Below, in pieces: positions 33,038 through 34,829 of a stretch of 63,600 nt of DNA; position 1 is the first letter of the stretch; each line of letters opens with the position of its first letter. A model generated the notes under the pieces. It did no database searches. It worked only from the letters and a program-made list of their open reading frames with translations, and had not been told where the DNA came from. The stretch is from the IMG/VR virus record IMGVR_UViG_3300027971_000055, positions 1-63,600 of that record; one strand, 5' to 3'. A program made the translations under genes and the position numbers. This stretch comes from a virus.

Positions 33038-33952
33038 ATGGCTATTTCACGCGCACAGCTCCTTAAAGAGCTCTTACCAGGACTAAATGCACTATTTGGT
33101 TTAGAATATAAACGTTACGGCGAAGAACATAAAGAAATCTACGAAACAGAGACTTCAGAACGTTCATTCGAAGAAGAAACAAAACTTTCAGGCTTTGCGG
33201 CAGCACCTGTTAAAAACGAAGGCAATGCCATCGCTTACGACAATGCTCAAGAAGCTTTCACTGCTCGATACAATCACCAAACTATCGCTCTTGGCTTTTC
33301 TTTAACAGAAGAAGCTGTAGAAGATAACTTGTATGACACATTATCAGCACGTTACACAAAGGCTTTAGCTCGCGCTATGGCTTACACAAAACAAGTTAAG
33401 GCTGCTGCAGTTCTTAATAATGGTTTCACTAACTCCGCTGCTTATTACGGTGGTGATGGTGTTCCATTGTTCTCTACCGCACATCCAACTGTTGGTGGTG
33501 GCACAAATAACAACACTCAAACAACTGCAACTGATTTGAACGAAACAGCACTAGAACAAGCTGTTATCAACATAGCTGCATGGACTGATGAGCGTGGTCT
33601 TTTAATTGCTGCTCAACCACGTAAGTTAATAGTTCCACCAGGTAATCAGTTCGTTGCAACTCGTTTGCTCGAAACTGAACTTCGTGTTTCTACAGCTGAC
33701 AATGATATCAATGCTCTTAAAAATAATGGTTCAATCCCAGAAGGATATTCAATTAACCATTACTTAACAGACACTGATGCATACTTCTTAACAACTGATG
33801 TACCTAACGGCATGAAACACTTTGTGCGTACTCCGTTATCTACTTCTATGGATGGCGATTTTGACACAGGCAATGTTAGATACAAAGCTCGTGAGCGTTA
33901 TTCATTTGGTTGGTCAGATCCTCTCGGTATGTGGGGTTCACAAGGCGCTTAA
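33038..33952 (+). CDS. Major capsid protein
   Basis: The 304-residue protein has a coat-like layout: N-terminal arm (MAISRAQLLKELLPGLNALF), an extended E-rich loop, VPLFSTAHPTVGGGTNNN, QPRKLIVPPGNQFVATRLLE, and C-terminal GNVRYKARERYSFGWSDPLG. This matches the Mu gpT-like branch of HK97-fold capsid proteins. It has GGAG before the ATG and a strong terminator after it. Confidence 0.9.
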   Translation: MAISRAQLLKELLPGLNALFGLEYKRYGEEHKEIYETETSERSFEEETKLSGFAAAPVKNEGNAIAYDNAQEAFTARYNHQTIALGFSLTEEAVEDNLYDTLSARYTKALARAMAYTKQVKAAAVLNNGFTNSAAYYGGDGVPLFSTAHPTVGGGTNNNTQTTATDLNETALEQAVINIAAWTDERGLLIAAQPRKLIVPPGNQFVATRLLETELRVSTADNDINALKNNGSIPEGYSINHYLTDTDAYFLTTDVPNGMKHFVRTPLSTSMDGDFDTGNVRYKARERYSFGWSDPLGMWGSQGA

Positions 33953-33979: not shown

Positions 33980-34008
33980 AAACCCAGTTTCGGCTGGGTT
34001 TTTCTTTA
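33980..34008 (+). terminator. Intrinsic terminator after the capsid gene
   Basis: AAACCCAG-TTTCGG-CTGGGTTT followed by TTCTTT. An 8-bp stem and T-rich tail 28 bases after the capsid stop; it separates the capsid operon from pqqA. Confidence 0.92.
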
Positions 34009-34065
34009 CCTGCTATTCATGGTTTTACGTATTCCACAGGCAAATCTTCGGAGTAATATGTAGTT

Positions 34066-34082
34066 ATACACACGGTGTGTAT
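34066..34082. promoter_or_regulatory. Perfect 17-bp palindrome upstream of pqqA
   Basis: ATACACAC-G-GTGTGTAT is an uninterrupted palindrome with one central base, 19 bases before the pqqA ATG and directly upstream of its ribosome site. It could be an operator for a dimeric repressor or a tight RNA hairpin near the ribosome site. I see no convincing -35/-10 pair in 34009-34065. Confidence 0.6.
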
Positions 34083-34101
34083 TAAATTTAAAGGAAAAAT
34101 T

Positions 34102-34173
34102 ATGTGGACAACTCCAGCAGCAACTGAAATGAGATTTGGCTTTGAAGTGACTATGTACGTAATGAACAAGTAA
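34102..34173 (+). CDS. pqqA: PqqA, peptide precursor of pyrroloquinoline quinone
   Basis: A 23-residue product starts MWTTPA, continues with RFGFEVTMY and ends in K. PqqA peptides share MW-x-K-P-A, D/E-x-R, G-x-E-V-T-x-Y and a final N-R/K, and the match here extends over nearly the full length. The essential Glu and Tyr that are cross-linked by PqqE are E15 and Y19 with the required three-residue spacing. AGGA lies six bases before the ATG. The gene is alone between two terminators, among late virion genes. No pqqB-E genes are present, so host enzymes would be needed. Each PQQ consumes one PqqA, so an abundant phage copy could raise PQQ output. Confidence 0.9.
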   Translation: MWTTPAATEMRFGFEVTMYVMNK

Positions 34174-34197: not shown

Positions 34198-34220
34198 AAG
34201 GGCTTTTGTAGCCCTTTTTT
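34198..34220 (+). terminator. Intrinsic terminator after pqqA
   Basis: AAGGGCT-TTTGT-AGCCCTT followed by TTTTG. A 7-bp stem with T tract 25 bases after the pqqA stop. Confidence 0.92.
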
Positions 34221-34231
34221 GTTGTATAATA

Positions 34232-34260: not shown

Positions 34261-34349
34261 TTGAATATCCGGGTATATCCGGTTTATTAGACTGTCCCGG
34301 CAGACGCATACAAGACTAATAGACTTAACTTTGTATGGAGAAATATATT

Positions 34350-34829
34350 ATGTCATCAACAACCTTTTCGGGTCCAGTGACGTCTACAGCCGGTTTTATT
34401 ACAGGTACAGGCGTTAATTCAACAGTTACAGCATCAACATTAACAGTTACAGCAGATACTTACAACGGTCAAACTATCGGTTTAAGTCGCGCAGCAGGTA
34501 TTACAGTAACCCTCCCAGCAGCTACAGGCACAAATGCCGTATATAAATTTTTGGTTGAAACAACAGTTACATCTAATAGTTATAAAATTCAAGTGGCTAA
34601 CGCAACAGACGTAATTAGTGGCACATTAAATGTTGCCGGTACTACAGGCACTCCGTTTGGCACTCTTCCAGCTTCTGACACAATCACAATGAATGGCACT
34701 ACACAAGGCGGCGTTATAGGTTCATACGTTGAACTTACTGATGTTGATGCAGGTATCTTTGCTATTACTACTGGCGGTCTTATTGGCTCTGGCACAGTAG
34801 TTACACCATTCTCTGCAGCTGTAAGTTAA
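34350..34829 (+). CDS. Probable structural protein, beta-rich
   Basis: ATG 34350 (MSSTTFSGPVTSTAGF) follows GGAG; an upstream ATG has no site. The 159-residue product is Thr/Gly/Val-rich, with repeats like TASTLTVTADTYNGQTIGLS, and lacks cysteine and long helices. It is likely a capsid decoration or fibre-like protein. Function inferred only from composition and place. Confidence 0.65.
   Translation: MSSTTFSGPVTSTAGFITGTGVNSTVTASTLTVTADTYNGQTIGLSRAAGITVTLPAATGTNAVYKFLVETTVTSNSYKIQVANATDVISGTLNVAGTTGTPFGTLPASDTITMNGTTQGGVIGSYVELTDVDAGIFAITTGGLIGSGTVVTPFSAAVS

Follow-up and report, generated by a model that had tools for sequence, protein, structure and literature searches.

A pqqA gene in a virus contig related to HTVC023P-type phages carries the operator type of Methylophilaceae pqqA promoters

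The major capsid gene of an environmental phage is directly followed, among viral genes, by an open reading frame of only 23 codons, which an earlier note on this DNA had read as pqqA, the gene of the precursor peptide of the redox cofactor PQQ. The locus raises the question of what a phage would gain from such a gene, and of how the gene is expressed. The window analysed here is the whole stretch of 63,600 bases of the source record, an IMG/VR virus contig whose terminase, portal and capsid genes are related to those of HTVC023P-type phages. PqqE, PqqD and PQQ dehydrogenase were looked for throughout this viral record and no match was obtained, which agrees with the note's statement that the other PQQ genes are missing from the phage. 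The features of the locus are collected in Table 1.

Table 1 Features of the pqqA locus, in window coordinates.
Feature	Position	Strand	Basis
Major capsid protein gene (Mu gpT-like, HTVC023P-type phage), synteny anchor	33038..33952	+	Pfam PF10124 8.5e-9, PHROG 371
Intrinsic terminator after capsid gene, upstream boundary of pqqA unit	33980..34001	+	Terminator scan
PQQ-regulon operator ATTCATGGTTTTACGTAT (host-type pqqA operator)	34015..34032	+	Host-derived matrix; de novo motifs
Predicted -10 box TAATAT (4/6 to consensus), 39 nt after operator start	34054..34059	+	Operator-aligned -10 profile; sequence
Predicted 5'-terminal mRNA hairpin TATACAC-ACG-GTGTGTA	34065..34081	+	Leader fold + z-scores
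Shine-Dalgarno AAAGGA	34090..34095	+	Read from sequence
pqqA, 23-aa PQQ precursor peptide MWTTPAATEMRFGFEVTMYVMNK	34102..34173	+	Pfam + NCBIfam profile matches
Intrinsic terminator after pqqA	34198..34222	+	Terminator scan

The pqqA gene, its distribution and its probable hosts

The reading frame translates to MWTTPAATEMRFGFEVTMYVMNK and then a stop codon. The peptide matches the Pfam PqqA profile that the note had proposed for the search (PF08042; 3e-10, 40.3 bits, cut-off 21.1) over 19 of 19 positions, and the NCBIfam equivalog TIGR02107 at 5.6e-10 and 38.8 bits (cut-off 20); both scores are about twice the curated cut-off and bear out the assignment of the gene as pqqA. Glu15 and Tyr19 are both present with the expected E-x3-Y spacing, as had been claimed; these are the residues that are turned into PQQ. 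A degenerate pqqA DNA pattern matched once in the window and in none of 100 shuffles, and a Shine-Dalgarno-like motif lies at the equivalent position in 118 of 120 viral pqqA genes. A chance reading frame is ruled out by the profile scores together with the conservation of the gene. A comparison of the peptide with PDB chains gave no match.

Conservation was assessed in viral copies collected by a scan that imposed neither Glu15 nor Tyr19. Both residues are kept in all 120 copies, and every copy ends at the same length, 22 residues from the Trp. A dN/dS of 0.095 over all codons was rejected as biased, since the search pattern imposes residues, and the free tail was used instead. There, in codons 15–23, synonymous change (pS 0.80) is far above amino-acid change (pN 0.14), no dN/dS ratio being quoted because dS is saturated. 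These substitution patterns indicate that the viral peptide is under strong purifying selection. The two Tyr codons are used in about equal shares among the viral copies, and these are thus not recent copies of each other.

More than 120 IMG/VR stretches carry pqqA (the pattern scan listed at least 120), and the viral loci fall into 21 synteny groups defined by shared flanking genes, three of which are large. Grouping by a single common flanking protein merged nearly all loci and was set aside. A tblastn search of 50,697 phage records returned P19250A (100%), MEP301, Venkman, MEP401, MEP402 and four Melnitz phages, as well as one unassigned environmental phage from Manatee Spring; the genuine matches are Methylophilales phages and this one environmental phage. 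Two further matches, labelled 'Acinetobacter phage', stem from one mislabelled organism and were discarded, one record having been read as a bacterial pqqBCDE locus; going by its annotation, CAKLQF020000010 ('Acinetobacter phage MD-2021a') is a bacterial chromosome with a pqqBCDE operon. None of the phage records names pqqA: the match is either unannotated, as in P19250A, whose peptide equals that of the window, or lies under a 'hypothetical protein', a call that is on the strand opposite to pqqA in both records inspected (ctXG6705 and Melnitz-1). 'PQQ' appears nowhere in the MEP401, MEP301 and Venkman texts, and the one on Melnitz mentions it solely as an ingredient of the medium. When the genome end of MEP402 was used for a distant search, the phages P19250A, MEP301, Venkman and Melnitz matched by the short pqqA patch alone. 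The methylophage HIM624-A is represented by a 23-kb partial genome.

For the assignment of a host, a degenerate pattern for residues 1–19 was run against 84,980 bacterial and archaeal genomes, of which at least 120 stretches matched. The matches listed belong to Methylotenera, Methylobacillus, Methylophilus, Methylopumilus, OM43, other Methylophilaceae or MAGs of broader rank, with one MAG labelled Sulfuritalea. Of 126 host copies among them, 107 share all 23 residues with the window peptide, the pattern itself having fixed residues 1–19. At the DNA level, the nearest host copies among the matches listed show 4 differences from the window over 66 bases; their sources are MAGs of Ca. Methylopumilus, of an uncultured member of the Methylophilaceae and of LD28. 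Most of the Methylophilaceae copies found encode exactly the window peptide, so the host is probably a methylotroph from this family that resembles Ca. Methylopumilus. A single gene of 23 codons thereby helps to assign hosts to anonymous phages.

All of 100 sampled Methylophilaceae genomes have pqqA, in 1 to 12 copies (median 4); the presence of several copies in one methylotroph was known already (PMC9851590). Two genomes were read for the remaining PQQ genes. Ca. Methylopumilus has pqqBCDE above the NCBIfam cut-offs and OM43 KB13 has a PqqB-like gene (named from sequence), and both have a PQQ dehydrogenase. With a profile match, reading frames that are unbroken in relatives and PQQ synthesis genes in plausible hosts, none of the three objections foreseen in the earlier note stands.

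These data bear on the possibility that, instead of serving as a substrate, the peptide blocks host PQQ synthesis as a competitive inhibitor or a signal. A short PqqD-binding peptide could act so in principle; an inhibitor would not need both cross-linked residues, however, and the window peptide is letter-identical to the common host substrate, which makes this reading extremely unlikely.

The operator and its targets in host genomes

The 18-bp operator of the window scores 14.4 bits with a matrix derived from host pqqA regions, the top score on both strands of the 63.6 kb, the next site reaching 10.8. De novo motif searches led to the same site from both sides: cCTCATGATTTTACTTAG was obtained from 98 de-duplicated host upstream regions and tTTAATGATTTTCctTAT, on the other strand, from 112 phage upstream regions. 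With the host matrix, 49% of viral pqqA upstream regions reach at least 11 bits versus 0 of 560 dinucleotide shuffles and 0.14% of random regions from the same contigs (P 9e-47, a value that overstates the number of independent observations, as loci of related viruses do not count separately). In the reverse test, 93% of host pqqA regions reach 11 bits with the phage matrix, as do 1.2% of shuffles. The operator is present in 14 of 20 testable synteny groups. Two observations weigh on the other side: about half of the viral upstream regions score below 11 bits, so that the operator is not universal, and the window operator has a G at a position that is mostly A, yet this G is common in phages.

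The matrix was read against two host genomes. The five best sites in the complete genome of Ca. Methylopumilus universalis are all upstream of genes, namely three pqqA copies, pqqB of the pqqBCDE operon, and a TonB receptor gene resembling PqqU. In OM43 KB13 the top two sites are pqqA promoters, and pqqB, which has the next intergenic site, shares third place; the 18 bases of this site are those of its Methylopumilus counterpart. As the host matrix was trained on pqqA regions only, the pqqB and receptor sites are independent predictions. A matrix trained on phage sequences, with no host DNA, places a pqqA promoter first in both host genomes; the pqqA, pqqB and PqqU-like genes account for nearly all intergenic sites near the top, and the remaining sites fall inside genes, as chance matches do. 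The operator was looked for at the PQQ dehydrogenase genes of both genomes and was absent there, which rules out an operator of methylotrophy at large. A literature search returned no description of such a PQQ regulon in Methylophilaceae, an absence that is no proof.

The PqqU-like gene (596461-598545 in Ca. Methylopumilus universalis) lies behind pqqBCDE and, with its operator, is a candidate for the PQQ importer of these methylotrophs. It also brings up superinfection exclusion, in which extra PQQ would saturate PqqU-like receptors that competing phages use. The operator at this gene is in keeping with the idea, and in E. coli PQQ blocks the PqqU-dependent phage IsaakIselin (PMC12124388). 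Methylophages are not known to use this receptor, however; it scores 479.7 bits against a PqqU equivalog cut-off of 1200, and the KB13 scan has no site at a PqqU-like gene among its best. We regard exclusion as very unlikely.

Promoter architecture and the capsid-side slot

The predicted -10 box of the window stands at the modal phage spacing from the operator: phage boxes lie 39–40 bases after the operator start in 27 of 56 cases, and host boxes 61–62 bases after it in 44 of 94; 33 of 94 host regions have an additional half-site at +25. With the transcription start placed some 7 bases downstream of the -10 box, the phage operator would centre as one site near -42, whereas in the Methylophilaceae hosts the main site would centre near -64, in many cases with a further half-site near -41. 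The phage position suggests the geometry of a class II activator, though a regulator acting at this operator could also be a repressor. The leader begins with the predicted hairpin, and leaders of this kind exceed their shuffles in stability both in phages (mean z -1.48, against -0.26 for a control region) and in hosts (mean z -1.32, against -0.53).

Retention of the operator across unrelated phages would also be expected of a decoy, the phage copies titrating the host PQQ regulator with the peptide secondary. A decoy has no use for a gene, a ribosome site and a terminator, however, and the strong purifying selection indicated for the peptide, with Glu15 and Tyr19 in 120 of 120 copies, argues against it; such a role appears highly improbable.

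The earlier note had placed pqqA under late expression with the virion genes. Read-through from the capsid gene within a late virion operon would still yield a PQQ-supplying peptide, and it fits the position of pqqA just downstream of the capsid gene in the window's synteny group. Against it, the gene lies between two terminators and has its own -10 box, a promoter-like region and a host-type PQQ operator, so that late expression with the capsid genes is unsupported, and the cassette of other phage lineages has recombination or tail genes as neighbours, or is found at the end of a genome. Read-through is accordingly judged unlikely; judging from these elements, pqqA is most likely a self-contained moron cassette of promoter, gene and terminator, controlled by the host, and not a member of a late operon.

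The window capsid is 65–72% identical to the capsids of HTVC023P, DSL-LC04 and Pag-Yong1. In the synteny group of the window (16 loci) the capsid gene is the upstream neighbour of pqqA wherever it is visible, mostly 48–584 bases away; pqqA thus recurs at the equivalent locus of related phage contigs, where the note had suggested looking for it. Among the contigs with the closest capsids, pqqA was found in only 3 of 80, within the stretches compared, some of which are short. In relatives lacking it, what comes right after the capsid terminator is the leader of the next gene, or else reading frames resembling homing endonucleases. Because the contents of the slot differ among relatives, the region downstream of the capsid terminator is a cargo site, or hotspot, and pqqA marks a subset of this phage family. 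Inspection by eye assigned the reading frames in the slot of six relatives to an HNH or GIY-YIG resemblance.

The position of pqqA between the capsid gene and the next virion gene holds as described in the earlier note, except that the latter gene probably starts at 34350 and not at 34335, since the first ATG lies inside a structured leader. This leader (34267-34352) is a conserved structured RNA that probably contains pseudoknots, in the order A-B-C-A'-C'-D-B'-D', with the ribosome site last. Across 24 relatives, each of the 8 pairs of helix B shows compensatory changes and the helix is 98% paired, and covariation is 0.418 versus 0.176 in shuffles; the sequences were picked with a structural descriptor and these counts lean towards pairing. 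An Rfam search of the leader gave no significant match.

Proposed role and comparison with known systems

The reading that best accommodates these observations is that viral pqqA supplies extra PqqA to the host pathway under control of the host PQQ regulator, and on the strength of the comparisons above we consider it likely. The host transcription factor that controls the host PQQ genes would bind the phage operator and, from its position near -42, would probably activate transcription of viral pqqA. Host PqqD would bind the 23-residue peptide, host PqqE would cross-link Glu15 and Tyr19, and the host pathway would complete PQQ. As each PQQ made consumes one PqqA, an extra gene could raise or sustain the PQQ supply during infection for the periplasmic PQQ methanol dehydrogenase, the main energy entry of these hosts. 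A point against this explanation is that hosts already have about four pqqA copies, so that PqqA may not limit PQQ.

The chances are about even that unrelated Methylophilaceae phages repeatedly acquired pqqA together with the host operator, and that viral pqqA is induced by a host sensor of PQQ demand. If so, pqqA and its operator would be a near-universal methylophage accessory, an auxiliary gene inside a host regulatory circuit, and their repeated capture would reveal an undescribed PQQ regulon. The proposal names a regulon that can be tested in aquatic methylotrophs, which are abundant. With the phage-host pairs already in culture (P19250A with LD28; Venkman and Melnitz with OM43 H5P1), virus-driven methanol oxidation through cofactor supply is testable now.

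PqqA as an auxiliary metabolic gene (AMG) of phages is not new. The Lake Baikal paper (Coutinho et al. 2020, PMC7678222) describes PqqA and methanol dehydrogenase AMGs in viral population VP_266 and states that P19250A lacks these AMGs; a list of viral genes in PMC13188868 includes pqqA as well. What appears to be new is the occurrence of pqqA across methylophage isolates, the operator common to phage and host genes and the PQQ regulon, along with a correction to the annotation of these isolates and to the one published statement. As in the window, PqqA of VP_266 belongs to a phage of a predicted methylotroph and was proposed to support methanol oxidation; unlike the window, VP_266 is T4-like and its contig encodes methanol dehydrogenase as well, and the portion consulted describes no operator (PMC7678222).

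The closest known counterpart of the window gene is pqqA of the Methylophilaceae (PF08042, TIGR02107), with the same 23-residue peptide and the same operator type. The three pqqA copies of Ca. Methylopumilus universalis are solitary, as is the phage copy; unlike its host counterparts, the latter resides in a phage in which no other pqq gene was found. The morons and photosynthesis-type AMGs of cyanophages are likewise phage copies of high-turnover host components, carried as single genes without their pathway. The window pqqA resembles them in both respects and differs from them in that its product is a peptide substrate that is consumed, and in that the gene carries a host regulatory site.
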